NCBI GenBank assembly: GCA_023666125.1
Contig: JAMPCN010000027.1
Span: forward strand, 1 to 34,225
DNA: 34,225 bases
Source of the DNA: Bacillus sp. (in: firmicutes)
GTDB lineage: Bacteria; Bacillota; Clostridia; Lachnospirales; Lachnospiraceae
Direction of reading: 5' to 3'
Positions within the stretch are counted from its first letter, which is position 1. Each line of letters opens with the position of its first letter. The notes beneath the pieces are model-generated. The model was not told the origin of the DNA. It made no database searches and saw only the letters and a list, made by a program, of their open reading frames with translations. The position numbers and the translations under genes are program-made. Positions 4,177 through 23,325 of the stretch are shown one piece after another.

Positions 4177-5163
4177 ATGATAGCATACATAAAAAATAAA
4201 AATGTTCTGTTCATTACAACGAAAAGACTTGATTATATCAGAAACACACAGGAAATCCGACTGTTAAAGCAATATGCCAAAAGCTACCGCATTATCGGCT
4301 CTGATAAAAAAGCCTATGTTTTGCGGCTCATCCAGGTATACCGACAGCTCTTCTTCACTTCCGTCAGACACTGCGATGCCGTGTTGATTGGATTTGCACC
4401 GCAGCTCATTCTTCCCTTTTTCAGGTGGAAATTTTGGAAAAAATACAGAATCATTGACTTTTTTATTTCTCTCTATGATACCTTTTGCTATGATAAACGC
4501 TGGGTCAATCCACACGGAGCGCTGGGCCGCCTGCTCTATCTGCTGGACGCCTGTACCATAAAACATGCGGATGCCATTATCTGTGATACCAAACAGCATG
4601 GCGAATATTTTGCAGAAGAATTTCACGCAGACAGGTCAAAGCTTCACCTACTCTATCTGGAAGCCGATCCTTCCATATATTACCCGATGCGGGTTGCCAA
4701 GCCAAAGGCGGTGAAAAAAAAGAAAGTTGTTTTGTTTTTCGGCAGTATGCTTCCCCTACAGGGCTACGAACTGGTTTTAGACGCTTTTTGTCATTTAAAA
4801 GAGCGTCCGGACTACTGTTTTTATTTTATCGGTCCCCTTCCGGCTTCCTTAAAACATCAGGTGCAGGATATTCCCAATCTCTTCCTGCGCGACTGGCTCA
4901 TGCAGGAAGAATTGGCGCGCCACATTGCTTTTTCAGACCTTTGCATTGCGGGGCATTTTGCCGGCGATATCGAAAAGGCCAAACGTACCATCCCCGGCAA
5001 AGCCTATATCTACCGCGCCATGGAAAAACCTATGCTGCTTGGCGACACGCCTGCTAACCATGAGCTTTTTAGCGCCGATAAAAATACGGTTTTTGTGCCG
5101 TCCGGCAGTTCCAGAGCCATATCAGACGCTATCCTGCGTTTCTTCGGGGATTTACCCTGCTAA
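4177..5163 (+). CDS. Glycosyltransferase, GT4-like (GT-B fold)
   Basis: A 328-residue cytoplasmic protein. The C-terminal half shows a Rossmann-like start (KKVVLFFGSMLPLQGYELVL), and a donor-binding region GKAYIYRAMEKPMLLGDTPANHELF as in GT-B retaining enzymes of family 4, where nucleotide-sugar contacts lie near this loop. The N-terminal half has the matching acceptor-side strands. The donor and acceptor cannot be told. A GGAG lies 11 bases before the ATG. It faces the long polymer operon and overlaps the end of its last gene by 12 bases tail to tail, so it probably belongs to the same surface pathway. An A8 run at 4714-4721 encodes a Lys stretch. Confidence 0.7.
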   Translation: MIAYIKNKNVLFITTKRLDYIRNTQEIRLLKQYAKSYRIIGSDKKAYVLRLIQVYRQLFFTSVRHCDAVLIGFAPQLILPFFRWKFWKKYRIIDFFISLYDTFCYDKRWVNPHGALGRLLYLLDACTIKHADAIICDTKQHGEYFAEEFHADRSKLHLLYLEADPSIYYPMRVAKPKAVKKKKVVLFFGSMLPLQGYELVLDAFCHLKERPDYCFYFIGPLPASLKHQVQDIPNLFLRDWLMQEELARHIAFSDLCIAGHFAGDIEKAKRTIPGKAYIYRAMEKPMLLGDTPANHELFSADKNTVFVPSGSSRAISDAILRFFGDLPC

Positions 5164-6231
5164 ATGATACTGCGCCAGATAAAGCAGATATAATCCCCTA
5201 TACAGCCCGCTTCTGACAAGCAGCGTAACTATCTTAAGCCTCCATTCCAGATGGCGCAGCCTGACTTCTTTAAACGCTGTTTTATAAGGATTGCTGCACA
5301 ATACCTGTTTTACATAACGCTGTTTTTCCTGATGTGATTTTGTATTTTCACGATGATAAAAATACAATCTGCCACAGATTGTAAAAGAGCGTATTACTCT
5401 GCAATAATAGGCCTGTAGAAAAGACTCCTTTTCTTCATGGTTCCACAAGCCCTCTGCCTGCTCCCTCTCATAGTAATCTTCGATGCAGCGCCAAACCCTG
5501 CCATCTTTTGCCACACGGTCCGCCTTATAACTGTTCGTAATCGAGTCCGCAACGCGGCGGTAATGATAAACCTTGCTCGTCTCATAGGAAATTTTCCGCG
5601 CCTTGCCAAAGGCTTCCATATTAAATACCATATCATCCAGAACGGCCAGCTTCTCACAAAACGCTATTCCATGCCGCAACAAAAAAGCCCTGCGGTAGAG
5701 CTTATCCCACGGAGCCGCCAACGGCACTTTCATCCCGGGAAAATCCATAGGATAGTATAAAACCGCCCTCTGCAGCCTGTTAATCTCCGTTTTTTCCCTC
5801 CATTCACAAGCAGAATGGAAATGTTCCCATGGCAGGCTTATTCCATCGCACTCCTGATAAGCGTCCAAAAGAATGATATCCGACTCTTCGCATTTATGCA
5901 GCGCTTCGCACAGCAGCCTTATACCATCCCCTGACAGCCAATCATCCGCATCCATAAAATACAGCCACTCTCCCCGCGCCCTTTCCATGCCCCGATTTCT
6001 CGCCGCAGCCACACCGCTGTTTTTCTGACGGATGAGCTGCACACAAAAGCGGCCGTCTGCAAAACGCTCCGCTATCTGAGCGGAACCGTCCGTGGAGCCG
6101 TCGTCCACCAGGATTATCTCTATCTTATTCCATCCGCTTACATCAAGCTGGCGCGCCACACTCTCCAGGCATTGCTCCAGATAAGAAACGACATTATAAA
6201 TAGGAATGATAATGGACAATTTCGGATTCAT
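5152..6231 (-). CDS. Glycosyltransferase family 2, last gene of the polymer operon
   Basis: A 359-residue GT-A enzyme. SIIIPIYN starts the fold at residue 6, DDG (43-45) binds the nucleotide, and DADD (94-97) is the metal-binding DXD motif. A helical C-terminal part follows with no clear membrane segment. It probably adds one sugar to the repeat unit or side chain on the cytoplasmic face. ATG 6231 is chosen because it overlaps the stop of the preceding gene as ATGA, implying translational coupling; an upstream in-frame GTG at 6270 would lie inside that gene. It is a paralogue of the two GT2 genes just upstream in the operon. Confidence 0.85.
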   Translation of the reverse strand: MNPKLSIIIPIYNVVSYLEQCLESVARQLDVSGWNKIEIILVDDGSTDGSAQIAERFADGRFCVQLIRQKNSGVAAARNRGMERARGEWLYFMDADDWLSGDGIRLLCEALHKCEESDIILLDAYQECDGISLPWEHFHSACEWREKTEINRLQRAVLYYPMDFPGMKVPLAAPWDKLYRRAFLLRHGIAFCEKLAVLDDMVFNMEAFGKARKISYETSKVYHYRRVADSITNSYKADRVAKDGRVWRCIEDYYEREQAEGLWNHEEKESFLQAYYCRVIRSFTICGRLYFYHRENTKSHQEKQRYVKQVLCSNPYKTAFKEVRLRHLEWRLKIVTLLVRSGLYRGLYLLYLAQYHLAG

Positions 6232-7568
6232 CCGTTCAACCACACCTTTCTGCTTTTCAAATACCACCACAGATTGCTCTTTCCGCCATAAAGCAGCATT
6301 AAAACAAGCGTCCGCATGGTTTTCGCCGTTACATCCATCTGCGCGCCTGCCTTTTTTAAATAGTTCCGATAATATTGCCTGTCAATCTTACCCAGCGCAT
6401 ACCCATGCGTATGCAGCTTTATAACCTGCAGATAATCGAGCAGCCGCCGGTCTTTCATGGCAGTTACCCACTCGTCCAGAATATGGAAAATCTCAAAATG
6501 TACAAACAATCTTTCATCTGTACAGGACACATCCTGCCCCTGCCTTCCCAACCGATAGTAATACAAATACTCCGGCACACATACCGCGCTTTTGGCGCAA
6601 AACCCGCTTTCTATCTTAAAAGGAAGGTCGTCAAAACGCGGAAGCGATTCATGGAAAGCAATCTTCTCCCTCTCAAGCAGTTCTTTTTTATAAATGCAAC
6701 GCCAGATAGCAACCCGTGTTTTTATCATGAGCTTCTGCACCTGATCTGCCCTGTAAGTTCCGCTCAGATAGGGCTGCTCCATACAATCGTTTCTGACTTC
6801 CCGTACGCTTCCTGCCGCCTCATCATACTCCTGATAGCCACAGTACGCCAGTTCATAGCCGCCCATAAGGGCTCGTTTCAATAGCTTCTTAAACATCTCC
6901 GGAGCTATAAAATCATCCCCGTCCACAAACCCGATGTATCTCCCTTTGGCCTCACACAGACCGAGATTCCTTGCGGATGCACAGCCGCCGTTTTTTTTGC
7001 GCAGATGTCTGATACGTCCATCTTTTGCCGCATAATCCTCAAGCAGCTGCGTCGAACCGTCCGTAGAACCATCATCCACAAAAAGATATTCCACATAGGG
7101 CGCTTTCCACTCTGTCAGAGATTCCAGACACTGCCCCAAATACCCACATACATTATATACGGGAATGATGACCGACAGTTCCAGCGGAGCATCTGTCCGC
7201 TCCCACTCCAATACTTCATATCTGTCCATATCCCGCATCAGCCTGCCTGTGCGATTTCTGAGGATATAGATATGTTCCGCCTGCATACGGTACCGCTCCC
7301 ACAGCCCGAAATAATCCTCTTCTTCTCCAGTCTGTCCAATCAGATACCGTATGGGAATATCTGCAATCTGTTTCACGGTTTCCGTCCATCCCTCCATGAA
7401 CAGAATGGAATCTATATGCGCCGTTTTTATGATACTGCGCAGCTTTTCCGGCTCTTTTTCCTGCGTCAGGGTAACGCTGGAAGCCCTCTGCATATGCACT
7501 GCGGCTCCCAAAATAAGCACATTCCCTATTCGGTTTTGCCTGTCAAGATAACTTTGCAACTGTCTCAT
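6228..7568 (-). CDS. Glycosyltransferase family 2 with N-terminal extension
   Basis: A 446-residue protein. The GT2 domain starts only at about residue 130 (LSVIIPVYN), with DDG at 165-167 and GDD at 217-219. The first 128 residues form a separate unit (NVLILGAAVH, later IIKTAHIDSILFMEG) that looks like a small alpha/beta domain and that I do not recognise. Both ends overlap neighbours by ATGA (4 bases), so three GT2 genes are translated as a coupled set. An A8 run (6991-6998, minus strand) lies next to the conserved NGG motif. The sugar it transfers is unknown. Confidence 0.8.
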   Translation of the reverse strand: MRQLQSYLDRQNRIGNVLILGAAVHMQRASSVTLTQEKEPEKLRSIIKTAHIDSILFMEGWTETVKQIADIPIRYLIGQTGEEEDYFGLWERYRMQAEHIYILRNRTGRLMRDMDRYEVLEWERTDAPLELSVIIPVYNVCGYLGQCLESLTEWKAPYVEYLFVDDGSTDGSTQLLEDYAAKDGRIRHLRKKNGGCASARNLGLCEAKGRYIGFVDGDDFIAPEMFKKLLKRALMGGYELAYCGYQEYDEAAGSVREVRNDCMEQPYLSGTYRADQVQKLMIKTRVAIWRCIYKKELLEREKIAFHESLPRFDDLPFKIESGFCAKSAVCVPEYLYYYRLGRQGQDVSCTDERLFVHFEIFHILDEWVTAMKDRRLLDYLQVIKLHTHGYALGKIDRQYYRNYLKKAGAQMDVTAKTMRTLVLMLLYGGKSNLWWYLKSRKVWLNG

Positions 7569-8644
7569 GCCACTTTATTCTCCGCTTTCAACGCTTTCTT
7601 AATTATTTTTTCACAAACTTCCTGAAACAGATAATCGTAAAATACGATACTGCCTATCCGAGAGCGCAGCGCCATGGACAATAGCATATACTGTAAGGCG
7701 TCCTTTAGCGCATACTGCTTTATGCTCTCCCTTGCCAAAATACGAATATATTTTTTCGGTATTCTCCTAAAAAAGCGCTGTATCTTATACACCAGCGTTT
7801 TTCTCGTATCTACATCCGCCATACGGATACACCAAAAGGAAAAGCGCAATATGATGCGCATGATGGGAAAAACCAACTCATCCCTATCCTGCCGCTTCAT
7901 AAAATGCAATAAATCCTCAAAAACAGGAAGAATATCCAAACGTTCACGTCCCGTAGCGGCTGTCGTCTGCGTGCTTTCTCCGATACGGTAATAGAAACCG
8001 ACATAAACGCCCATACAGCTATGGCACTCTGACAGCAGATAAAAATGCGGATAAACATCTTCCCATTTAATTTCTTCCCGAAAGGCAAACTTTGTCCTGC
8101 GCACAAACTCCATACTAAGGACTTTACGACAGGCATTCACTTCAAACTGATACAGACGCTTCTCACGCTGCGGTTCAACTATCACTCCGCTCCGGGAAAA
8201 CACCTGTTCAAACAGTTTTTTATCGTACCAATCTCTGACGATATGGCTCTGTTCATGATAGATGACCGGAAGCGTCATAATCATTTCCGGAGGCTGAAGC
8301 GCCTTTTCAATCTCTCCCAGTATCTGCTCCACATAGTCCGGCATCAGCCAGTCGTCGCTGTCCAGAAAAGACACATATGCCGTTTCCGTCATCCGCAGCC
8401 CCGTGTTTCTGGCGCCGCCGCACTGTTTCTTATTCTTCTGATAAATATACCGTATCTTCTCAGGATATTGCCCGGCATAACTATGTCCAATCTCCGCCGT
8501 CCTGTCCATAGAGCCATCATCCACTATGATGATGCAGTATCTGTCATCCGTCTGCCACAGGATGCTCTCAAGCGTCCTGACAAGTGTTTTCTCTGCATTA
8601 TAGGCAGGAATGATAAATGTAAGGGCAAGTTTCGTATCTCTCAT
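7565..8644 (-). CDS. Glycosyltransferase family 2
   Basis: A 359-residue GT-A enzyme with FIIPAYN at residues 10-16, DDG at 42-44, the CGGARNTGL segment near 75-83, and DSDD at 95-98 as the metal site. The C-terminal part is helical and basic. The start codon overlaps the stop of the ABC ATPase gene (ATGA), and its own stop overlaps the next GT2 gene the same way. By context it builds the glycan part of the exported polymer. Substrates are not readable from sequence. Confidence 0.85.
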   Translation of the reverse strand: MRDTKLALTFIIPAYNAEKTLVRTLESILWQTDDRYCIIIVDDGSMDRTAEIGHSYAGQYPEKIRYIYQKNKKQCGGARNTGLRMTETAYVSFLDSDDWLMPDYVEQILGEIEKALQPPEMIMTLPVIYHEQSHIVRDWYDKKLFEQVFSRSGVIVEPQREKRLYQFEVNACRKVLSMEFVRRTKFAFREEIKWEDVYPHFYLLSECHSCMGVYVGFYYRIGESTQTTAATGRERLDILPVFEDLLHFMKRQDRDELVFPIMRIILRFSFWCIRMADVDTRKTLVYKIQRFFRRIPKKYIRILARESIKQYALKDALQYMLLSMALRSRIGSIVFYDYLFQEVCEKIIKKALKAENKVA

Positions 8645-9369
8645 TTCATAAACTCCACATAATGCGCCAGCACCTCGTCCGGCTTGCCGATTTCTTTCAT
8701 TTCACCATCATGAATCCATAACACCCGGTCGCAAAGTTCCTGCAGCGTATCTTTATTGTGCGAGACAATAATAACCGTCCGTTTCTTGTCTAAAATTAAC
8801 GACTTCATCTTCTCCAGGCTTTTCTTCTTGAAGCGTTCATCTCCAACGCTTAACACCTCATCCACCAACATGATATCCGTCTCCAACATCGCCGTGATGG
8901 CAAAGGCGAGTTTCGAGTGCATACCGCTGGAATAGGTGCGTACCGGGCGGTCAATAAACTCTCCGAGTTCAGCGAAAGCAATAATTTCATCCAGTTTTTC
9001 TCTAATCTGCCTCTCAGTAAAGCCCAAAAGCATTCCTGAAAGCATAATATTCTCCCTGCCTGTCAATGTGTTCTTAAACCCGACTCCTAAAGCCATCAAC
9101 GATACGGAATGCCCTTTCAAATCTATTTCGCCTGCATTGGGTGAAAACACGCCTGCGATAGAACGCAATAACGTTGATTTTCCACTTCCATTTCTGCCAA
9201 TAATCCCCAGGATTCCGCCCTCATCCACAGAGAACGAGATATGTTTGACCGCCTCAAATATGATTTCTCTCTGCTTTTTATGAAATAAACTTTTCTGCAC
9301 ACTGGTGGTATTCAAGATACGATAGTTAATGCAAACATCTTTTAATTCAACAGCTTTGCTTTTCTCCAT
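8641..9369 (-). CDS. ABC transporter ATPase for polysaccharide/teichoic acid export (TagH-like)
   Basis: A 242-residue nucleotide-binding protein. Walker A is GRNGSGKST (58-66), the signature is the divergent YSSGM (146-150) typical of TagH/RfbB/Wzt-type polymer exporters, Walker B is DIMLVDE (165-171), and an H-loop His lies in VIIVSHNKD. It ends soon after the core fold, so it has no C-terminal polymer-binding domain like Wzt; TagH of Bacillus carries a different extension. It pairs with the permease gene directly upstream. ATG 9369 or GTG 9372 could start it (AAGGAG lies 10 and 7 bases upstream); the difference is one residue. Confidence 0.9.
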   Translation of the reverse strand: MEKSKAVELKDVCINYRILNTTSVQKSLFHKKQREIIFEAVKHISFSVDEGGILGIIGRNGSGKSTLLRSIAGVFSPNAGEIDLKGHSVSLMALGVGFKNTLTGRENIMLSGMLLGFTERQIREKLDEIIAFAELGEFIDRPVRTYSSGMHSKLAFAITAMLETDIMLVDEVLSVGDERFKKKSLEKMKSLILDKKRTVIIVSHNKDTLQELCDRVLWIHDGEMKEIGKPDEVLAHYVEFMK

Positions 9370-9383
9370 CACTTCCCTGCTCC

Positions 9384-10472
9384 TTAAATCATTTTTACAT
9401 ACGCATTTTCATTTCGGTAAATCGTAGATACGCCTATGATAATCAGCAATACCGATAGTAATGTCCACATTCCAAGCATCATCCAGTCAGGCGTCCGCCC
9501 GTATAAAAGCGCGCCGCGCATGGAGGAAACCAGAAAGGCAATGGGATTATACCGCTCCATCAATTCTCCAAACGGCGCGGGAATCCGCTTCCCCACGTCA
9601 TAAAACACCCCTGTCAGATACATCAGCATCCTCAACACGATTCCCACGATATAGGACAAATCGTTTACATAGACGCCATAGTGCATGAAAATATTGCACA
9701 ATCCGAAGGTAAACAAAAAAAGCACTGCCAACACCGGTATCAAGCCCAAAATATTGACTGTAAGCCGCACCTTGAAGATAATCATCATAACCGCCACAAC
9801 GCCAAAAGAAACCATCATCTTAAAACCGCACACCAGCATTCTGGAAAACAAAAGGATAAACTTTGGCATATAAATCTTGGTAACGATAGAACGGTTAGTT
9901 CGAATCAGATTCACACTGCTGGACACGCATCGGGAAAAAAAATTCCACATTGTCAGTCCGATAAAAATAAAAACGGGAAAATACGGTTCTGATGCCTTAA
10001 ATACTATGCCAAACATGACCGCATAAATCAGCATCATGCAAACCGGTTCTATCAACCACCAAAGCCAGTCCAGATAGGCATTGGACACTTCGGCGCGAAG
10101 GTCAGCCTTAGCTGACCAGAACGCATAATGCGTATAATTTTTAATATCATGCAAAAACTTACCCATGACATTCCCAATGCCCTGCCCGCTTTCTCTTCTC
10201 CCACTAAAAAGACCGACCAAAAAGGGCAGGATGAGCGCCCACGCGCAGCCCATACACAGATATTTAAACTTATAGGTCATAGTCATCCCCTGAAAACGGA
10301 ACCCTCTGACGCCGCGTATACTGGATACCGCATAGGTAAAAACATTGACCAGGACAAAATAGAATAAACCAAAGACCGCTTTCCGCTTACCGCTCATGGT
10401 TCCCCGATGCAAAAAAATATGTATCGCCCATGCCAATATGGGCGGCAAAAAGAGAATAGCGAAATTAAACAT
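9384..10472 (-). CDS. ABC-2 type permease for polymer export (TagG-like) with N-terminal membrane extension
   Basis: A 362-residue membrane protein. From about residue 107 it follows the TagG/RfbA pattern: an amphipathic lead FLHDIKNYTHYAFWSAKADL, then six membrane helices ending in the C-terminal VSTIYRNENAYVKMI. The first 90 residues add roughly three further hydrophobic helices not present in typical TagG permeases of about 260-275 residues. Their role is unknown; they may bind a lipid-linked polymer or a partner. AAAGGAG precedes the ATG. It forms the export pair with the ATPase encoded about 15 bases downstream. Confidence 0.85.
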   Translation of the reverse strand: MFNFAILFLPPILAWAIHIFLHRGTMSGKRKAVFGLFYFVLVNVFTYAVSSIRGVRGFRFQGMTMTYKFKYLCMGCAWALILPFLVGLFSGRRESGQGIGNVMGKFLHDIKNYTHYAFWSAKADLRAEVSNAYLDWLWWLIEPVCMMLIYAVMFGIVFKASEPYFPVFIFIGLTMWNFFSRCVSSSVNLIRTNRSIVTKIYMPKFILLFSRMLVCGFKMMVSFGVVAVMMIIFKVRLTVNILGLIPVLAVLFLFTFGLCNIFMHYGVYVNDLSYIVGIVLRMLMYLTGVFYDVGKRIPAPFGELMERYNPIAFLVSSMRGALLYGRTPDWMMLGMWTLLSVLLIIIGVSTIYRNENAYVKMI

Positions 10473-10497: not shown

Positions 10498-11589
10498 TTA
10501 TGTTTTTATGAAAAGTCTGCGTACCCACGGCCCCTGCTTTGTCAGAACATCCACAAGACGCATGACGATAAAGGCAAGAATAAACGCAGAACAGATATAT
10601 GGTATCAGTTTAAAGACATATGTCTTTTCGGTAAATATTTCTTCTACTGCCACCCAGCATACCACATGATTCAAATACAGATAAAAACTGTATTTTCCTA
10701 AAAAATTCGCCACGGATGGTATACGGCCGGCCAAATCCGCCAGATACGTTTTCTGTGTCATGCTGCATAAAACCGCAATGGCGATTAAAATGATGACTGC
10801 AAAATCCATCCCGGATATATGCCCAAAATGCATAAACAATATCACTGACAGATAAATGCCGCCCTCCAAAACCGTGAGAAGCCCTTTCCCTAATTTCGTC
10901 AATTCTATGCCATCAAGGCATTTTTTTAATCCGTATAGAAAAATCCCCAGATTGATTTCCGCTATCGCCCTAATCTGGCATTTATACATGACGCCGTCCC
11001 ACTTCGTGACATTCCTGCATGAATTATATTTATGGCTCAGATATCCCAAACAGAAAACTGCGATAACCGGCGCAATGATATAAATATACTTTTCCTTATA
11101 TCTGTAAAGCGGTATAATAATCAGCCCCATCGTTAATAACATCGCGGAAATATACCATACCACGCCATTATAATCTTTACCTACAAAACCGCCGTTTCTA
11201 ATCAAAAGAGGTTCATATATGCCTTTCATCATATCTTTGACAATTTCCGTTACGCCGGGATTTCCTTTTACGATATGCGTTCCGACAAAGGCAATTATCC
11301 AGGAACACCAGACCGGCAGCAGGAACGCTTTGATTTTATGCGCCATAAGTTGCTGCGGCGTTTTACCCCCCCCCAGACAGGAATTGGCAAAATAATACCC
11401 CGATACAATAAAAAAGAATTCTACCGCAATGTTGCCATTATAAAAAAGAATCACTTCATTGCTCCGCAGTTCTTTTGGGAAAAAGTATTGGGAATGAAAT
11501 AATAATATGATGATGGCAAAAATAAATTTTGCTATGTTTATTTCATGGTTTGTTTTTTCTTTGTTCTTACCTGTATTCATTTTCCCCAT
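10498..11589 (-). CDS. Acyltransferase family 3 membrane protein (OafA-like), phase-variable candidate
   Basis: A 363-residue protein with about ten membrane helices. The N-terminal FHSQYF (31-36, catalytic-type His) and VEFFFIVSGYYFANS (57-71) are family-3 acyltransferase marks. It would O-acetylate or succinylate a sugar of the surface polymer, moving the acyl group across the membrane. A run of nine G (11366-11374 on the plus strand reads C9) encodes the Gly triplet at residues 73-75; loss or gain of one base would stop the protein near residue 75. The start overlaps the upstream SDR gene by 23 bases; ATG 11589 or ATG 11580 are both possible, and spacing to GGAAGGAG does not settle it. Confidence 0.85.
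   Translation of the reverse strand: MGKMNTGKNKEKTNHEINIAKFIFAIIILLFHSQYFFPKELRSNEVILFYNGNIAVEFFFIVSGYYFANSCLGGGKTPQQLMAHKIKAFLLPVWCSWIIAFVGTHIVKGNPGVTEIVKDMMKGIYEPLLIRNGGFVGKDYNGVVWYISAMLLTMGLIIIPLYRYKEKYIYIIAPVIAVFCLGYLSHKYNSCRNVTKWDGVMYKCQIRAIAEINLGIFLYGLKKCLDGIELTKLGKGLLTVLEGGIYLSVILFMHFGHISGMDFAVIILIAIAVLCSMTQKTYLADLAGRIPSVANFLGKYSFYLYLNHVVCWVAVEEIFTEKTYVFKLIPYICSAFILAFIVMRLVDVLTKQGPWVRRLFIKT
11366..11374. repeat. C9/G9 homopolymer in the acyltransferase gene
   Basis: Nine consecutive C on the plus strand, within codons 72-75 of the acyltransferase. The gene is in frame in this assembly. Slipped-strand change of one base would frameshift it. Confidence 0.85.
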
Positions 11590-12658
11590 TTTCTCCTTCC
11601 ATTGTACACATCATGTTTTGGTACATTTCCAGTAAATTTTTGGTTGGTTTCCAACCTAATTTTAATAATTCATCGATATCCAGATTATAAAAATGTGGGG
11701 GGGGAAATTTCAGACTTCTTTCTTTATTGTCGGCAAATTTTACGGCAATTTTTTCTTTCGACAATTCCTGCGCCACTTTGTCCGCCATCTCTAAGACGGA
11801 ACAATACGTTTCCGGATTGGCGGCGTTATATGCCTTTCCTTTTTCCCCTTTCAGAAGAACGGTCAGTATTGCGCTGACCGCGTCAAATGTATAAAGATAA
11901 CACCTTTTGCTGCCCCCATCCGTCAACAGTACAATATCCTTTCCCTCCCGTGCGCATCTGGCAAATTCTGCAAATACCCGGACATCCTCCCTGCCCACTC
12001 CCGGGCCAAAGGTCTGTGCAAGCCGTATACTCATGCAGCGGACATCAAACTCGTCCGCATAAGAAGCGCATAATGATTCGCACTGCCTTTTGGCCTCCGG
12101 ATAGCAGTTTCTTACTATCAGGGGATTGATATAACCCAAATCCTGTTCCGTTAATTTATCCTCGCTTCTGGGAGCGCCGTAGATTTCCATGCTTGATAAA
12201 TAAACAAAGCTCTCCACTTTCTTCTCTTTGGCAAGCTCCAATAAATTAATTGTGCCGATAACCGCCGTCTTTATCGTTTCCACAGGTTTTGTGATAAAAT
12301 ACTCGCTTGCAGTCGGGCTTGCCCCATGTATGATATAATGAACCGGATATGCTATTGTCGGAAGACGCTCCACAGTTCCCTCCATGAAAATGAGTTCATC
12401 CGTATCTTGCAGCAGTTGTGCAAACTGCGTTCCCGCCCTCTCCAAAGAGCGTACCGGCGCCAAAATTTTTATATCTAACTGCCTGGTGCGATTTACATAC
12501 GCCAATGCCTTAATCATGGTCGAGCCAATCAGTCCTGTTGCGCCGGTAACCAGTATATTTTTATTTCTCAGCAATTCCCATGGTATGTATTCCTGTTGAC
12601 AGAGCAATTCCAAATCCCGTTGCCATACATCCAAGTTTTTTCTCATTTTAATAACCAT
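11567..12658 (-). CDS. Extended SDR, NAD-dependent epimerase/dehydratase family
   Basis: A 363-residue enzyme. The NAD-binding motif GATGLIG is at 39-45, the catalytic pair YxxxK is Y186/K190 (CYPEAK), and the supporting Ser lies in YLSSMEIYG (153-161). HGASPTASEY resembles nucleotide-sugar decarboxylases and dehydratases. It could make a nucleotide sugar, or, paired with the cytidylyltransferase, reduce a sugar phosphate to an alditol phosphate, as SDR partners do in some streptococcal capsule loci; the sequence alone does not decide. GGGAG lies 6 bases before the ATG. A G8 run (11697-11704; C8 in the coding strand) sits at about residues 318-321, so a slip would replace only the last 45 residues. 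Confidence 0.8.
   Translation of the reverse strand: MVIKMRKNLDVWQRDLELLCQQEYIPWELLRNKNILVTGATGLIGSTMIKALAYVNRTRQLDIKILAPVRSLERAGTQFAQLLQDTDELIFMEGTVERLPTIAYPVHYIIHGASPTASEYFITKPVETIKTAVIGTINLLELAKEKKVESFVYLSSMEIYGAPRSEDKLTEQDLGYINPLIVRNCYPEAKRQCESLCASYADEFDVRCMSIRLAQTFGPGVGREDVRVFAEFARCAREGKDIVLLTDGGSKRCYLYTFDAVSAILTVLLKGEKGKAYNAANPETYCSVLEMADKVAQELSKEKIAVKFADNKERSLKFPPPHFYNLDIDELLKLGWKPTKNLLEMYQNMMCTMEGENGENEYR
11697..11704. repeat. G8/C8 homopolymer in the SDR gene
   Basis: Eight consecutive G on the plus strand, encoding a Pro run near residue 320 of the SDR. Currently in frame. Confidence 0.85.
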
Positions 12659-12698
12659 GCCTTTCTCCCGGTCTGCGGTATCTGTGTGTCAAAGCGCT

Positions 12699-14072
12699 TT
12701 ATTCCATGGTAAAGACGCCCTTATTATTAATAATCTGTTCGATTTTGTCTACAATCCGTCCTGCGGCATGTCCGTCTTCCATACACCCTTTGTCCTCCAG
12801 AAACAGCCTGCGCTTCTCCTCGTATTTCTGCATATCAAAATGTATAATGCTTTCATTTAATTCGTCATTATTGCGTGATATCGGAAACGGGGTTGTCTCC
12901 AAGGGATAATAAAATCCCCTGTCATGTCCATAGGAGTCAAAATCCACCGCATAAATAAACGCGGGTTTTGCAGTCAGCGCATAATCGCACAGCCAACTGG
13001 AATAATCAGACAATCCCGCATCGGCTATACATAATAACTCCTGCATATCCGGATACGCCGTGGCATTGATGAGATAGGAACTCTCCATCATATTCTTCCC
13101 TGCTTTTCTATTATGCAAATGAAACCGCATAAGCACTTTCCAGTTTCCTCCGAATCTCATAGCCAAAGAATCCACTAACCGCTTAAAATCGACATTGAAA
13201 TATTCCAATGAACCGTCTATCCGATATGTCGGTGCATACAGGATATATTTTGTGTTTAAGGCTTTGTTTCTTTTTTTCATAATGGCATTTTTTTCATTCT
13301 CAGCCAGTTTTTCAAAATCATCCGGCAGCCTTTTTATGACTTCTAAATCCGTCAGCACGGCTTCTTTTAATTTCCTATATTGTTCCGCGTCATGCAAAAA
13401 AAGAACGTCATTTCTGGCATGTCCATATTCCAATATTGGCGTATCATTCCAATATGCTTCCCTGAAAACATTTGTTTCAAAGACGCTATTAGATATACAG
13501 ATATCTGTCACCCTGTTACATTTTTCAGCAACTTTGTTAATATAACGTTTCTTCTTTCCCGACTGGTTATGCTGATTCGCTTTCCCTATCCGCTTAAAGC
13601 CTAACGAACCGTGCCATGTCTGGATGTAGACCTGCCCCTCTTTTTTCAACAGCGCATATGGCTTTAAATATTTTAATTCATTTTCAATCCAAATCCGCGC
13701 CGTCGCCATTGCCTGATATGCTTCATATGTTCCCTTTTTGATAAGCGTCAGCTCTTTGGGAAAATTCCCATTAGTCATCTCCTTATCATCTTTTACAAGC
13801 CAGACTAACTCATACGGCAAACCCCTGTTCAGGATTTCCTGCACAATATACTTCGGATTGCAGTCATACCTTCCATCAACCGCCGTCAATACGATTTTAT
13901 TATCTGTTATCTTTTGACGATTGGACCAGATTGTCCTGACTATCTTGCCTATCGCATAATCCATTTTATAAACAGGCGTCAAAAATATAAGCTTTATTTT
14001 TCTTTTGATATAATCTGCCGTTGTACATAGAAACCTGCCTTCCATTACCGCATATACAATATCATTCCACAT
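12699..14072 (-). CDS. CDP-glycerol glycerophosphotransferase family protein (first listed of three)
   Basis: A 457-residue peripheral membrane enzyme of the TagF/TarL class. Family landmarks appear in order: CNPKYIVQEI, YIQTWHGSLGFKRIG (catalytic-type His in WHG), YGHARNDV, LYAPTYR, RFHLHN, and SDYSSWLCDYAL near the C-terminus. Such enzymes transfer glycerol- or ribitol-phosphate from a CDP-alditol to a growing polymer on the cytoplasmic face. AGG lies 9 bases before the ATG. It is the fourth gene of the operon, after two paralogues. It resembles the 432-residue paralogue more than the 375-residue one, so the two may do consecutive steps on similar substrates. Primase and polymerase roles cannot be assigned. 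Confidence 0.85.
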   Translation of the reverse strand: MWNDIVYAVMEGRFLCTTADYIKRKIKLIFLTPVYKMDYAIGKIVRTIWSNRQKITDNKIVLTAVDGRYDCNPKYIVQEILNRGLPYELVWLVKDDKEMTNGNFPKELTLIKKGTYEAYQAMATARIWIENELKYLKPYALLKKEGQVYIQTWHGSLGFKRIGKANQHNQSGKKKRYINKVAEKCNRVTDICISNSVFETNVFREAYWNDTPILEYGHARNDVLFLHDAEQYRKLKEAVLTDLEVIKRLPDDFEKLAENEKNAIMKKRNKALNTKYILYAPTYRIDGSLEYFNVDFKRLVDSLAMRFGGNWKVLMRFHLHNRKAGKNMMESSYLINATAYPDMQELLCIADAGLSDYSSWLCDYALTAKPAFIYAVDFDSYGHDRGFYYPLETTPFPISRNNDELNESIIHFDMQKYEEKRRLFLEDKGCMEDGHAAGRIVDKIEQIINNKGVFTME

Positions 14073-14171
14073 ATTTACTTACCTGCCCTCACAACATATC
14101 CATGGCATGATTTTCCATATGCTGTCTTAAATGATATCTGCGATTATCTTCAGGAAAATTCAGACCATGGA

Positions 14172-15470
14172 TTATGTATTTTCTATTATAAATTCCGTTA
14201 AGCGTTCGCTTGCATTTCCTGTTTCATAACACCCTCTTTCTTTCAAAAATAAATCAACTTTCCGTAAATAAGTTTTTTCATCAAAATTGATAATATTATG
14301 GTTTAACGCCTCATTACTGTCAGCTATCAAAAACGGCGTTTCCTGTAAGGAATAATAAAAACCTCTGGAGTGGATATATTTATTGATATCCTCTGCATAA
14401 ATAAACGCAGGACGCCTTGTCAGCATAAAATCAAATATCCAGCTTGAATAATCCGTTATCCCTATATCAGACGCCGCCATTAACTCCTGCATATCCGCAT
14501 ATTCGCTTACATCTATGACAGAATCCTTATTGGCGAACAGATTTTTGGCATTCCTGTTATTTTTATTATGAAAATGAAAGCGCGCCAAAACAACCCACTT
14601 TACCCCCCCCGATACGCTTTTTAACGAATTTATTAATGTTTTACAGTTTATTTTAATGGCGCTTATGTCCTTTTTGTCATCACGGAATGTCGGGGCATAT
14701 AATACCGTTTTGACATTTTCATCTATTCCATAATGCGCATAGACTTTCCGTTTCATTTCCAGCATCCTTTCTGCATCAAAAAACATATCGTTTCTCGGAT
14801 GTCCATATTTTAAACAGCTTACATCAGGAAAGAAAGAATTTTTTAATACATCTTCTTCAAACTCGCTGTTAGTAATAAAAAAATCAATTAACTTATTTCC
14901 TTTTCCGGCTATTTTCTTCCACTTAGCGTCTCCATCCAGTTTTTTGATTCCCAAAGAACCATGCCAGGTATTCAAATATATCTGTCCACGTTTCTTAGGC
15001 ATGGCTTTCCAGATGCAGTTTAACGCATTATCCACCCAGAAACGGGCTGTCGCCAATGCAAAAAAACTCTCAAAAGAATCTCTCTTTACCAGCTTTACTC
15101 CTTCAGGAACTGTAGATAAATCCTTATTGTCAAAACTTATCTTATCGACAATAAATATAATTTCATAATCCAATTTCCTCTTTAGCAGCTCTTGTGCAAT
15201 ATACTTACAATTACAGGTATAGGTATTCTGAAAAGTAGCGAATACAATCCTTTTCTTATTAATTTCCGCCCTGGAAAATAAGATAAACCTTAACACGGTT
15301 CCCATAAACTCATCCATATTTTGTATCATTGTCCTTAATGACGTCCGAAAATGGCTGCCTGTTTTGCGCAAGGCGTTTCCCTCTGCCAATCCAATAAATA
15401 CCTTTCCCCGGTATCCGTCTTTTTCAATTTTTATCTGTTGCGTCTCATCATCATATACCTGTCTGTACAT
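14172..15470 (-). CDS. CDP-glycerol glycerophosphotransferase family protein (second)
   Basis: A 432-residue TagF/TarL-class enzyme. It shows the same ordered landmarks: CNCKYIAQEL, YLNTWHGSLGIKKLDGD, YGHPRNDMFF, LYAPTFRDD, RFHFHN and TDYSSWIFDFML. The first 70 residues, before FATFQNTYTC, lack family motifs and may bind membrane or a partner. AAGG lies 8 bases upstream of the ATG. A C8 run on the plus strand (14603-14610) encodes part of VSGGVKW near residue 287; a one-base slip would remove the C-terminal third including the SDYSS-type motif, so this gene is an on/off candidate. About 100 bases separate it from the next gene, the largest gap in the operon; I see no promoter or terminator in it. 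Confidence 0.85.
   Translation of the reverse strand: MYRQVYDDETQQIKIEKDGYRGKVFIGLAEGNALRKTGSHFRTSLRTMIQNMDEFMGTVLRFILFSRAEINKKRIVFATFQNTYTCNCKYIAQELLKRKLDYEIIFIVDKISFDNKDLSTVPEGVKLVKRDSFESFFALATARFWVDNALNCIWKAMPKKRGQIYLNTWHGSLGIKKLDGDAKWKKIAGKGNKLIDFFITNSEFEEDVLKNSFFPDVSCLKYGHPRNDMFFDAERMLEMKRKVYAHYGIDENVKTVLYAPTFRDDKKDISAIKINCKTLINSLKSVSGGVKWVVLARFHFHNKNNRNAKNLFANKDSVIDVSEYADMQELMAASDIGITDYSSWIFDFMLTRRPAFIYAEDINKYIHSRGFYYSLQETPFLIADSNEALNHNIINFDEKTYLRKVDLFLKERGCYETGNASERLTEFIIENT
14603..14610. repeat. C8/G8 homopolymer in a CDP-glycerol transferase gene
   Basis: Eight consecutive C on the plus strand near codon 287 of 432. Currently in frame; a slip would truncate the enzyme before its last conserved motifs. 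Confidence 0.85.
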
Positions 15471-15523: not shown

Positions 15524-16651
15524 TCAAATGTTTTCCAAAAAGGCAAGAACCCTTTGCGTTGACTGTCCATCTTCATAAGTTCCTAAAAAACGATTAAACT
15601 CTTCCATATCGCTTATATGTTTTTTATCATCAAGACGCGCAATTTCTTGCAGCAATTCGTCTATATTTTTCACTTTTATATAGGGCCATTTTTCATATGG
15701 CATATAAAACGGTCTTTCTTTATCTGCGTACTGTCTGGGGGATTTCGCATAACTGATAACGGGTTTCCGGCATAATGAAAATTCCCATAAAAGCGACGAA
15801 TAATCCGATATCAATAAATCTGCCGCACACAATAATTCCTGCACGTCTATGTAATCGCTGCAGTTTAGTATCCGCTTATCCGAGTCCTTTAAGTTGTTCT
15901 GCCTGTCAAACTGATGCGCCCTGAACAGACATACCCAATCCTCTCCTGTCTTATCCTTAAGCGCATCCAGCGCTTTTTCTATTTCCTCACTGTCCAAAAG
16001 TTCATATTGTTCATAGCGGTATGTCGGCGCGTATAACAGTATCTTTACTTTCATGTCTAAGCGGTAGCGTTCCCTTATTTCCCTATAGAAAGAATTTTGA
16101 CTAAAAAATATATCGCATCTTGGCATTCCCGTTTTTAAAATCCGGCTTTCCTGTATGCGAAACGCTTTCATGAATATATGCGCCAAATATTCACTGGACG
16201 CTATCATGTAATCCGTTCTTCCATACCATTTATCCAGAAGTTCTTTACGCGCATCCGCTTCCGGCAGGTCATATCCCGCTTTTTTAAAAGCTCCTCCGCC
16301 ATGCCATGTATTAATAATAATCTGTCCCTCTTTTTTAATAAGAAGCTCGTCCAGCATATCGTTGGTTATAAAGATTCTGGTTCTGGCAAAAATATAATAA
16401 TATAAGAAACTGCGTCTTTTTATCACCTTGTAGTCTTTACTTACAGGTACAGTTTTGGGATAATCGCTTACCCAGTATAAGCGGTATTTTTTATTTTGAC
16501 TCCTAATCAATCCATACATAATATACTTGGGATTACAACATATCCCTTTCCTGTCATGCGCATAAAACATCATGATACGGGGATTTATCGGCAGGCATAG
16601 GAGTGCATGTTTGATAAATCCCCTTATCATTTTTTCTACTTTTCTAATCAT
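15524..16651 (-). CDS. CDP-glycerol glycerophosphotransferase family protein (third, short form)
   Basis: A 375-residue enzyme, close in size to TagB-like primases, which are the shorter members of the family. Landmarks: CCNPKYIMYGL, INTWHGGGAFKKAG, GMPRCDIFF, LYAPTYRYE, RAHQFDRQ, SDYSSLLWEFSL. It differs from the two longer paralogues at each motif (WHGGG rather than WHGSL), consistent with a different acceptor, for example adding the first alditol phosphate to a lipid-linked sugar. That role is inferred. Its ATG overlaps the end of the cytidylyltransferase gene by 8 bases, so the two are coupled. Confidence 0.85.
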   Translation of the reverse strand: MIRKVEKMIRGFIKHALLCLPINPRIMMFYAHDRKGICCNPKYIMYGLIRSQNKKYRLYWVSDYPKTVPVSKDYKVIKRRSFLYYYIFARTRIFITNDMLDELLIKKEGQIIINTWHGGGAFKKAGYDLPEADARKELLDKWYGRTDYMIASSEYLAHIFMKAFRIQESRILKTGMPRCDIFFSQNSFYREIRERYRLDMKVKILLYAPTYRYEQYELLDSEEIEKALDALKDKTGEDWVCLFRAHQFDRQNNLKDSDKRILNCSDYIDVQELLCAADLLISDYSSLLWEFSLCRKPVISYAKSPRQYADKERPFYMPYEKWPYIKVKNIDELLQEIARLDDKKHISDMEEFNRFLGTYEDGQSTQRVLAFLENI

Positions 16652-17369
16652 ATTTACCCTGCATATTCAATATTTCTTTGGATTCCAGGACAGCCCGCAT
16701 TGTGAATATATCCTCCGGAGTCGTAACTTTGATATTTTCTACCGGTCCGTCTATCAAATACAGTTGATGCCCATAATACTGCATCATGGTACAGGAATCT
16801 ATAAAATCTAATTTATTTTCTTTGATGGACTTTTCATGCGCCTTTAAAATATCTTCCAGCCAGAAACTCTGCGGCGCTTTCGCTATTCTGGAGCAGCTCC
16901 TGTCCGGCACTTCCCGAATCAGGTTATTATCTTCCACTACCAAAATTGTCTCTGTCACTTTAGAAGTTGTAATGGCGGAACCATATTTTTTTACACTGTT
17001 GATATTGTCATCAATGACATGGTGGTCAATAAACGGCCTTACGCCATCATGTATCAAAACAATCGCCTCTTCATAGGCAATCGCCTTGGCCGCCATCAGC
17101 GCATTGTAGATGGATTCCTGCCCCGTTGCGCCTCCGGTTACTATTGTCCTGACTTTCCGCAGATTATACTGCTCTGTCAATTCATTCAGGTATGAAATCC
17201 ATTCTTTTACACAGGAAACTACAACCGCATCTATATCGGGATGTGTATCAAATATCTGCAATGTATGTATAATAATAGGCTTACCATAGACTTGCAAAAA
17301 TTGTTTGGGCAATTCTTTTGTATGCATTCGTTTTCCCACTCCGCCTGCAAAGATAACACCTATATTCAT
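16644..17369 (-). CDS. Alditol-phosphate cytidylyltransferase, TarI/IspD family
   Basis: A 241-residue enzyme with FAGGVGKRM (7-15) and PKQF (21-24) for CTP binding, HDGVRPF (107-113), and a C-terminal NIKVTTPEDIF. The KEWISYLNELTEQYN region and the neighbourhood of CDP-alditol-using transferases favour TarI (ribitol 5-phosphate) or a related alditol phosphate over the isoprenoid enzyme IspD. It would make the CDP-alditol used by the three transferases downstream. ATG 17369 has AGGAGG 5 bases upstream; an in-frame extension to 17423 would run into the promoter and is rejected. It is the first gene of the operon of eleven genes ending at 5152. Confidence 0.85.
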   Translation of the reverse strand: MNIGVIFAGGVGKRMHTKELPKQFLQVYGKPIIIHTLQIFDTHPDIDAVVVSCVKEWISYLNELTEQYNLRKVRTIVTGGATGQESIYNALMAAKAIAYEEAIVLIHDGVRPFIDHHVIDDNINSVKKYGSAITTSKVTETILVVEDNNLIREVPDRSCSRIAKAPQSFWLEDILKAHEKSIKENKLDFIDSCTMMQYYGHQLYLIDGPVENIKVTTPEDIFTMRAVLESKEILNMQGKYD

Positions 17370-17394
17370 CCTGTCCTCCTGCATTTTTAATAGT

Positions 17395-17427
17395 ATTATA
17401 CTCACTTTGTATGCTATTTTCAATAGC
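17395..17427 (-). promoter_or_regulatory. Promoter and operator of the polymer operon
   Basis: TTGAAA (17418-17423), 17-base spacer, TATAAT (17395-17400): a near-consensus sigma-A promoter. The palindrome GCTATT-N3-AATAGC (17413-17427) is centred on the -35 box, so a bound protein would compete with RNA polymerase. This single site probably controls all eleven genes down to 5152. Confidence 0.75.
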
Positions 17428-19212: not shown

Positions 19213-19301
19213 TAATCCATATCCGGTCATTCGACCAATTCATTTGATGGAAAGCCGCCTGTGCGCTTTCTGTTATCTTACACCACGAAGGAGACATGTC
19301 T

Positions 19302-20291
19302 ATGAATCAAAAAACAACAAATCTTAAAAATGCAGCCTCAATTTTCAATCCAAATACTCTGCTTCCAAACGCCCACGGCAACCTCCCTTACGGCATGACG
19401 AACGACTACATGTTTCGGGCGGTTTTCCAGACCAACAACAAGGCTTTACGCGGTCTTATCCGTTCACTTCTGCATCTTCATGAAGAAGATATCTCATCCG
19501 TGGAAATCACAAATCCTATCATCTTAGGAGAATCCATTAAAAATAAGGAGTTTCGTCTGGACATTAATGTTAAACTAAATAACCGCTCCCGTATTAATCT
19601 TGAAATGCAGGTAACGGGCAGGCTTATCTGGTCCAACCGCTCCGTCAGCTATCTCTGCCGCTCTTTTGATATGCTCAATCACGGTCAGGATTATGCAGAG
19701 GTCAAACCCGTCATACATATCGGCTTTCTGGATTATACGCTGTTTCATGACTATCCTGAATTTTATGCCACTTATAAACTTCTTAACGTAAAAAATCATC
19801 ATCTTTATAGTGACAACCTGACCTTAAGTGTGGTAGACTTATCTCATATAGAGTTAGCAACTGATGACGACAAGGAATATCATATTGATTGCTGGGCTAA
19901 ACTTTTTAAAGCCACCACATGGGAGGAAATCAAGATGTTAGCAGCGAAGGACCAATACATTAACGAAGCGTCTAAAACCATCTTTCAGTTAAGCGCCGAA
20001 GACCAGATTCTCAAGCGCTGCCGCGACCGTGAAGAGTATTATCTGGATTTACGGGCGTATGAGAGAGAAGTTGCGGAGAATAAGAAGATGCTTGAGGAAG
20101 ATAGGAAGATACTTGAGGAAAAAGAGAAGATTATCAGTGAAAAGGATAAAATCATTGCCGGAGATAAAAAGGCTCTTTCCGAAAGTAAACAAATGATTGC
20201 CGAACAAGGCGCAAAACTGGCTGATAATGAAAAACTGATTAAAGCACTTCTCGATGAAATTGAAATGCTGAAATCAAATACAGGCAAATAG
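19302..20291 (+). CDS. Rpn-family PD-(D/E)XK nuclease (putative transposase-like)
   Basis: A 329-residue protein. The N-terminal GMTNDYMFRAVF is typical of Rpn/transposase_31-type proteins. The nuclease core is LDINV with D87 and NLEMQV with E101 and Q103, matching the D...ExQ pattern of these PD-(D/E)XK enzymes. The last 90 residues form a Lys/Glu-rich coiled coil with repeated EKEKIISEKDKII-like units. Family members promote RecA-independent recombination or cleave DNA; many copies occur in Clostridia, and some act in phage defence. ATG 19302 is 8 bases after AAGGAG; the ATG at 19296 would be only 2 bases away. No flanking inverted repeats show it is part of a transposon. Confidence 0.8.
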   Translation: MNQKTTNLKNAASIFNPNTLLPNAHGNLPYGMTNDYMFRAVFQTNNKALRGLIRSLLHLHEEDISSVEITNPIILGESIKNKEFRLDINVKLNNRSRINLEMQVTGRLIWSNRSVSYLCRSFDMLNHGQDYAEVKPVIHIGFLDYTLFHDYPEFYATYKLLNVKNHHLYSDNLTLSVVDLSHIELATDDDKEYHIDCWAKLFKATTWEEIKMLAAKDQYINEASKTIFQLSAEDQILKRCRDREEYYLDLRAYEREVAENKKMLEEDRKILEEKEKIISEKDKIIAGDKKALSESKQMIAEQGAKLADNEKLIKALLDEIEMLKSNTGK

Positions 20292-22770: not shown

Positions 22771-23325
22771 TTATTGTTGCATAAAAGAATCAATTTTCCC
22801 TAACACTACAGAGTCTTTTTGATAGAAAAAGTCTGTAGCCTCCACTACCAATGTTTCTCCTATGACTTTTTCATTCCGAATCTTTTCCGCTGACTTAAGA
22901 AAATCTTCTTTTATATCAAGCGTAGTTGACAAATGGACGGGGTGGCGATTCTCTTCTTTCATGCGGTGAAGATATCTCTGGTACAACACTTCCGCATCTC
23001 CCTGCAAAACAAGCGTCAAAACAGCGTATTGATGTTCCGCGGCAATGGTATGTAACTTTTGCAGTTCTGATTCATGGAAATTCGCTTCCAGAATCACATC
23101 ATTGCCTGTCAGGGCAGTTTGTGAAAATATATGGCACATAATTTCTATCGTCGTATTGGAAAGCACCTTATTTTCCTCACGATTATGAAATCCAATATAA
23201 TCGCCTAAAATCTCTTTTATTGTATCTTTCTGAAATGCGGCGGTATGATATCTTTCTGATAATATTTTAGAAAATGTTGATTTTCCTGCGGCTATGTCAC
23301 CTGTAAGCAATAACAGTTTTTTCAT
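22771..23325 (-). CDS. P-loop kinase, AAA_33 / zeta-toxin-like family
   Basis: A 184-residue soluble protein. Walker A GDIAAGKST is at residues 9-17; QKDTIKE follows at about 32, and a second acidic motif VILEANFHE at about 77, as in small P-loop kinases that phosphorylate nucleosides, sugars or antibiotics. A lid-like region with R and H residues (YQRYLHRMKEENRHPVH) lies near 115-130. The substrate cannot be told. AGGAGG precedes the ATG by 6 bases. It stands alone between two terminators and has no partner gene resembling an epsilon antitoxin, so a housekeeping kinase is likelier than a toxin. Confidence 0.7.
   Translation of the reverse strand: MKKLLLLTGDIAAGKSTFSKILSERYHTAAFQKDTIKEILGDYIGFHNREENKVLSNTTIEIMCHIFSQTALTGNDVILEANFHESELQKLHTIAAEHQYAVLTLVLQGDAEVLYQRYLHRMKEENRHPVHLSTTLDIKEDFLKSAEKIRNEKVIGETLVVEATDFFYQKDSVVLGKIDSFMQQ

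Follow-up and report, generated by a model that had tools for sequence, protein, structure and literature searches.

Can a bacterium of the family Lachnospiraceae switch parts of a surface polymer on and off through single-base changes in runs of G? The question is raised by contig JAMPCN010000027.1 of a draft genome deposited as Bacillus sp. (GCA_023666125.1), whose 34,225 nucleotides were analysed whole and are called the window here. A membrane acyltransferase gene, a short-chain dehydrogenase/reductase (SDR) gene and a CDP-glycerol-type transferase gene, all within a putative surface-polymer gene series, each contain a run of eight or nine identical G or C bases. We conclude that the three runs are very probably poly-G/C contingency loci at which slippage would produce phase variation. 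Comparison between two species supports phase variation, and switching within a strain is its presumed counterpart.

Three G/C tracts and the reading frames around them

A recount of the window returned three G/C runs longer than five bases, with the positions and lengths that an earlier reading of the sequence alone had assigned to them: C9 at 11366–11374, G8 at 11697–11704 and C8 at 14603–14610, as written on the forward strand. That these are the sole runs of this kind in the window, as the sequence-only reading had held, also stood up, the next longest being runs of five (two of G and ten of C), with no run of six or seven in the 34,225 bases. All three tracts lie within open frames on the minus strand. 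By run count and frame computation they correspond on the coding strand to G9 in the acyltransferase gene, to C8 in the SDR gene, with about 42 codons still to come, and to G8 in the transferase gene, and each of the three genes is in frame, in agreement with the earlier reading.

Frames were computed for the loss and the gain of one base at each tract. The acyltransferase frame reaches a stop 68 nucleotides on after loss and at 0 nucleotides after gain; the transferase frame stops immediately after loss and 34 nucleotides on after gain. In the SDR gene the shifted frames stop 32 nucleotides (loss) or 9 nucleotides (gain) past the tract, and the in-frame end lies 127 nucleotides on, for a predicted loss of about the last 42 codons. 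The proposal that slips would alter the SDR tail and truncate the transferase matches these computed frames. A one-base slip changes the frame of each gene and would presumably alter the expression of all three.

In the mechanism that we propose, polymerase slippage would add or drop one base in an eight- or nine-G tract, and translation in the shifted frame would end soon after it. The CDP-glycerol-type transferase and the membrane acyltransferase would thereby be switched ON or OFF, the SDR would lose or regain about its last 42 codons, and the surface polymer would vary in chain and acylation from one sister cell to the next. We infer that slippage is responsible, that the change can be reversed within a strain, what kind of polymer is made, and that host, phage or competitors exert selection. 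The figure of up to eight surface states that had been derived from the three runs is arithmetic and not data, and the genome holds 35 such runs rather than three.

A one-base change in the transferase tract of a sister species

A scan of genome contigs for the acyltransferase returned a single relative, contig JAMPFF010000001.1 (metagenome-assembled genome: Clostridium sp. isolate NALB_7861_15; genome G036, locus L009), called the sister below. It shares 94.7% identity with the window across 16.96 kb. The alignment contains five indels. Two of them (22 bases and 1 base) are intergenic, and two, each of 3 bases, lie within genes; the fifth is an extra G, which lengthens the transferase tract from G8 to G9 in the sister and is the sole frame-breaking indel within any gene of the alignment. 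The extra G leads to a stop 34 nucleotides downstream. Past the tract, the original frame of the sister transferase is still without a stop, and the ratio of nonsynonymous to synonymous substitution rates (dN/dS) is 0.079 there, compared with 0.096 before the tract. The state of the gene fits a recent switch-off better than decay, with the limit that a between-species dN/dS cannot date the change.

Length changes at tracts elsewhere in the genome

The regions around the remaining 32 runs of at least eight G or C in the window's genome, and around the runs of the sister, were then compared. In all, 28 of the 35 runs were located in the sister and seven had no match. For the first 23 sites the sister loci had been chosen for holding a run of at least eight, which favours retention, and the remaining five were sought as a correction. 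Among the 28 located tracts, 13 had the same length in both genomes, 11 had changed (five longer and six shorter in the sister) and four were broken by other changes.

Control runs were taken from 20 alignments comprising 81,493 columns. When runs were defined on the window's genome, length had changed in 2 of 443 unbroken A/T runs of 5–8 bases, 0 of 55 A/T runs of 7–8, 0 of 32 G/C runs of 5–6 and 8 of 22 G/C runs of at least eight. When they were defined on the sister, the corresponding counts were 5 of 440 for A/T runs of 5–8, 0 of 30 for G/C runs of 5–6, one of one for G/C runs of seven and 7 of 22 for G/C runs of at least eight. G/C tracts of at least eight thus vary in length at sites of a kind that A/T runs and shorter G/C runs hardly ever show.

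Two of the 11 changed tracts are intergenic (L042 and L053), two have an unclear frame (L063 and L065) and seven lie in a clear gene frame, which is altered in 7/7. The genes concerned encode the transferase, an AraC-type regulator, a family-5 solute-binding lipoprotein, RgpF, two methyltransferases and a large protein without a Pfam hit (L054). In the regulator the difference is confined to the tail past the helix-turn-helix. L054 has its OFF copy in the window's genome and an open frame in the sister; the sister copies of all the other frame-changing genes are cut at the tract. Four clear ON/OFF pairs were measured, and in each the part past the tract has no stop, with dN/dS of 0.079 (transferase), 0.03, 0.29 and 0.09. 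The ON/OFF count leaves out L063, which has further indels beside its tract, and L065, whose true start codon is uncertain, and RgpF (L049) can be called ON only up to the end of its contig, 90 nucleotides past the tract. The tract of L052 was counted as of the same length, and an adjoining one-base insertion shifts its frame. The description of the window's runs as phase variation candidates appears well founded, given a transferase frameshift in an otherwise intact, constrained gene and a class of tracts that is hypermutable in length.

Interrupted genes were also found at tracts of the window's genome. A sugar/cation transporter (L067 1281–2715, G000:C124) is interrupted at a G8 tract, with the two pieces aligning to consecutive parts of a single Pfam profile, and a LytTR-type regulator (L041) is without the start of its receiver domain. 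As a separate observation, one open reading frame (ORF) of the sister (L084 419–2488, G036) joins a 60KD_IMP (YidC-like) domain to a CDP-glycerol-type transferase domain; its G8 tract, near the ORF end in the sister, is interrupted in the window's genome.

Genes that carry tracts

Protein pieces were scanned for part of the genes that hold runs (38 from the window's genome, 20 from the sister and 30 from G004, a third, distant species of the genus). In the window's genome, tract genes encode glycosyltransferases, RgpF, methyltransferases, four solute-binding proteins, two flagellins, AraC and LytTR regulators, a histidine kinase (with the tract upstream), transporters and several proteins without a Pfam hit. 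The sister adds pyruvyl transferases, GT61, CotH, hexapeptide transferases and leucine-rich-repeat proteins. G004 contributes ATP-grasp sugar-transfer, MBOAT, sulfatase, WcbI, FkbM, flagellin and leucine-rich-repeat families. Eight is the commonest tract length in the close pair (23 of 35 tracts in the window's genome, 30 of 45 in the sister); 28 of the 44 tracts of G004 are ten long.

An excess of long G/C runs in the genome and the genus

How unusual three such runs are was estimated in the window and then in whole genomes. Synonymous-codon resampling of 31 window genes gave a mean of 0.32 runs of at least eight and reached three in 2 of 300 trials, and a first-order Markov model predicted 0.62 in the window. 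The earlier estimate of well under one such run in 34 kb holds as to being under one, and its "well under" is somewhat strong. The window count alone corresponds to a p-value of about 0.004–0.025, which is only moderately unusual and not decisive. The length distribution is the stronger argument. The window's genome has 132 G/C runs of exactly six, 10 of exactly seven and 35 of at least eight, and the sister has 133, 12 and 45, respectively; geometric decay from six to seven would predict about 0.8 runs of at least eight in the window's genome, as opposed to the 35 observed. When 35 runs were placed at random, three fell within 3,245 bp in 400 of 20,000 trials. Chance or base composition as the cause was rejected on this genome-wide distribution, for which purpose the window count alone is insufficient.

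The same pattern extends through the genus. More runs of at least eight than of exactly seven were counted in 68 of 77 genus genomes and in 43 of 248 genomes from other genera, each of the latter representing a different genus of the family at a completeness of 90% or more; no completeness filter was applied to the genus set. Genus genomes have a median of 20 runs of at least eight (maximum 95) and five runs of seven, compared with medians of three and nine in the other genera. Genomes with ten or more runs of at least eight, and at least twice as many of these as runs of seven, make up 47/77 of the genus and 9/248 of the others. Because the excess recurs in a few other genera of the family (33 runs of at least eight against 5 of seven in G098, 17 against 4 in G136, 24 against 7 in G220 and 30 against 8 in G305), the trait may have arisen more than once. 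An outlier from another genus, G323, has 121 runs of at least eight and 511 of exactly seven, an ordinary decay at a very high level.

In 74 of 77 genus genomes MutS1 exceeded its cut-off; the three others (G021, G052 and G063) are assemblies of the 64–68% completeness class. Loss of mismatch repair was rejected as the cause on this count, MutS1 being the component considered.

Tracts in putative promoter spacers and before flagellin genes

Some tracts lie where a promoter spacer would be expected. The exact pattern TTGACA-tract-TATAAT, with spacers 16–19 long, occurs in 8 of 77 genus genomes (L060 and L111–L118), and the reversed pattern, used as a control, in 0 of 77. Seven of eight promoter-pattern loci have a downstream ORF, and all seven ORFs begin like a signal peptide or lipobox, as judged by eye; L113 and L118 evidently represent one gene in two species. 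The example from the window's genome is L060 2046–2054 (G000:C94). In a hand-picked set of 25 upstream runs, of which one abuts an N gap and L060 and L147 also belong to the exact-pattern set, nine are flanked by a -35/-10 pair with at least 9 of 12 matches, compared with 3.5% of 5,000 random placements in the same loci, a lenient control in that the placements include coding DNA. These patterns suggest that the tracts may act as promoter spacers.

Poly-G also ends 4–6 nucleotides before flagellin start codons at L042 2047–2055, L093 2035–2042, L069 1977–1985 and L134 (G004:C9:72327). L042, from the window's genome, has nine G, and its sister counterpart L093 has eight. As a guess, such poly-G may serve as, or space, the ribosome-binding site. 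The genus as a whole, flagellated bacteria of the Clostridia type and presumably inhabitants of the gut, probably has a poly-G phasome of Campylobacter scale, with a median of 20 and up to 95 tracts, intact MutS and at least three modes: frameshift in genes for glycans, lipoproteins and regulators, tracts in the promoter spacers of secreted proteins, and poly-G a few bases ahead of flagellin starts.

Alternative explanations

Several results weigh against phase variation at the three runs. The sequence-only reading had looked to run lengths in related strains as one check, and in one close relative the transferase tract differs (G8 vs G9), but the C8 tract of the SDR gene and the G9 tract of the acyltransferase gene have identical lengths. 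In 28 distant loci with SDR homologues (L012–L039, 30–48% identity), which were picked by homology and for which membership in the same operon is not implied, none has a tract at this site, and a G/C run of at least seven occurs in just two of them, L026 and L030. The four tracts broken in the sister include L070, with synonymous changes, and the promoter spacer of L060, and 24 of 28 tracts were kept against substitution compared with 20 of 32 G/C runs of 5–6, not clearly more often (p = 0.077). Both genomes are, moreover, draft assemblies (138 contigs and 87.96% completeness for the window's genome; about 80 contigs and 5% contamination for the sister), which raises the question of whether the length differences are consensus mistakes of sequencing or assembly. 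In G004 one tract borders an N gap, and runs of 15 and 18 are found close to a contig end. Such mistakes are nevertheless a very unlikely source of the differences, which are absent from the 55 A/T runs of 7–8 and the 32 G/C runs of 5–6, go in both directions (5 longer and 6 shorter in the sister) and have no bearing on the genome-wide excess of runs of at least eight, which is independent of exact lengths. Coding need, by which Gly-Gly or Pro-Pro codons happen to be written as GGG or CCC, is less probable still. GGG does account for 108 of 596 Gly codons in the window genes, resampling did reach three runs in 2/300 trials, and several lipoprotein tracts lie shortly past the lipobox Cys, where Gly is common; this explanation leaves aside the 35 runs found where about 0.8 are expected from decay, the hypermutability of tract length and the tracts outside genes.

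An unlikely but more serious alternative is that the tracts are a mutational by-product, in which replication or repair in this lineage lets G runs exceed seven and they persist as hypermutable scars and not as switches. The genus-wide extent of the excess, the turnover of tracts (4 of 28 broken in the sister) and the presence of tract genes without a nameable surface role would all agree with such an origin. It is countered by MutS1, intact in both genomes and over cut-off in 74/77, by the purifying selection that acts past the tract on sister-cut genes (dN/dS 0.03–0.29 in the four clear pairs), by a placement in promoter spacers above its controls, and by the many tract genes of surface-glycan, lipoprotein or flagellin type, in a plain listing with no background set. 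G-tracts of such length also allow transcriptional slippage or ribosomal frameshifting, so that either length could yield a mixture of products and DNA length would matter less. This would account for the constraint past the tract in "cut" copies as well, and leaves unexplained both the changes in DNA length between species and the tracts in promoter spacers; we regard it as improbable. Phase variation by slippage remains our preferred account of the three runs.

The surface-polymer gene series

The minus-strand series containing the three tracts encodes, in order, an IspD-family cytidylyltransferase, three CDP-glycerol-type transferases, the SDR, the acyltransferase, an ABC exporter and three family-2 glycosyltransferases. 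The cytidylyltransferase (16644..17423; PF01128, 159.2 bits, cut-off 27) has what we take to be a TarI-like role. The tract lies in the middle CDP-glycerol-type transferase (14172..15470; PF04464, 235.6 bits, gathering cut-off 22.1); the other two (12699..14072; PF04464, 219.7 bits, and 15524..16651; PF04464, 255.8 bits) have none. Against the NCBIfam model for TarF (NF041712) the tract-bearing transferase scored 134.7 bits, under the curated cut-off of 550, and does not qualify as a TarF equivalog. The SDR (11567..12658; PF01370, 129.1 bits, gathering cut-off 20.9) belongs to the NAD-dependent epimerase-dehydratase family. The acyltransferase is a membrane protein of family 3 (10498..11589; PF01757, 68.5 bits, gathering cut-off 31), for which there was no NCBIfam match. 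It is followed by an ABC-2 type exporter permease (9384..10472; PF01061, 32.3 bits, cut-off 26.9), by the exporter ATPase (8641..9372), whose best NCBIfam match is a teichoic acid export ATPase, below cut-off, and by the three glycosyltransferases (PF00535), which occupy 5152..8644 (5152–6270, 6228–7568 and 7565–8644). Among the matches listed for the proteins of the series, the SDR included, none reached an NCBIfam curated cut-off. Gene order and families suggest that the series is one operon for an exported polymer containing alditol phosphate. Beyond the start of the series lie a PD-(D/E)XK-type transposase-family gene (19296–20291) and a zeta-toxin/AAA kinase-like gene (22771–23325).

Comparison with known systems

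Homopolymer phase variation has mostly been studied in Gram-negative pathogens. In Neisseria, homopolymers in promoter spacers reportedly act as switches, the tract length setting the spacing of the promoter elements, and the TTGACA-tract-TATAAT patterns suggest a likeness to them here. The mechanism is known; what appears unreported is the scale found in this lineage and the location within a teichoic-acid-like series of genes. If the account is correct, clonal populations would be mixed at the surface through tens of tracts in surface-polymer, lipoprotein, adhesin-like, flagellin and regulator genes, and heritable surface heterogeneity would be a core trait of the lineage. This would bear on phage resistance, antibody coating, the tracking of strains in metagenomes and the "pseudogenes" called in such assemblies.

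No report of G-tract phase variation in Lachnospiraceae-like bacteria was found in the literature searched, which was mostly without subscription papers and bioRxiv preprints, and "Lachnospir" does not occur in the main text of a 2025 review (PMC11868660). Homopolymer tracts in genes have been proposed as a general switch of prokaryotes in a survey with Clostridia among the sampled groups (PMC2831843), the available passages of which name no G-tract repertoire of a Lachnospiraceae-like genus. Work on Bifidobacterium breve (PMC9187656) describes a switch of sortase pili by G-tract slippage, which resembles the present case in that an intragenic G-tract turns a surface structure ON or OFF in a Gram-positive gut commensal. 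That work was experimental and concerned two pilus clusters, whereas the set described here is genome-wide and comes from sequence comparison only.

The closest likeness in scale is to Campylobacter. According to passages of PMC6321876, its poly-G phasome consists of many G-tracts per genome, genic and intergenic, mostly in genes for surface structures, with tracts of at least eight mediating switching; in passages of PMC6437147, cgtB of C. jejuni carries 8 or 9 G within one culture. The tracts described here are likewise many, at least eight long, and placed in and between genes. Campylobacter tracts peak at 9 and 10 in the same passages of PMC6321876, and those of the present lineage at 8 and 9 in the close pair and at 10 in G004. 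Unlike Campylobacter, the lineage is a genus of Gram-positive type that has CDP-glycerol-type polymer genes, and its tracts are known from the comparison of sequences between species.

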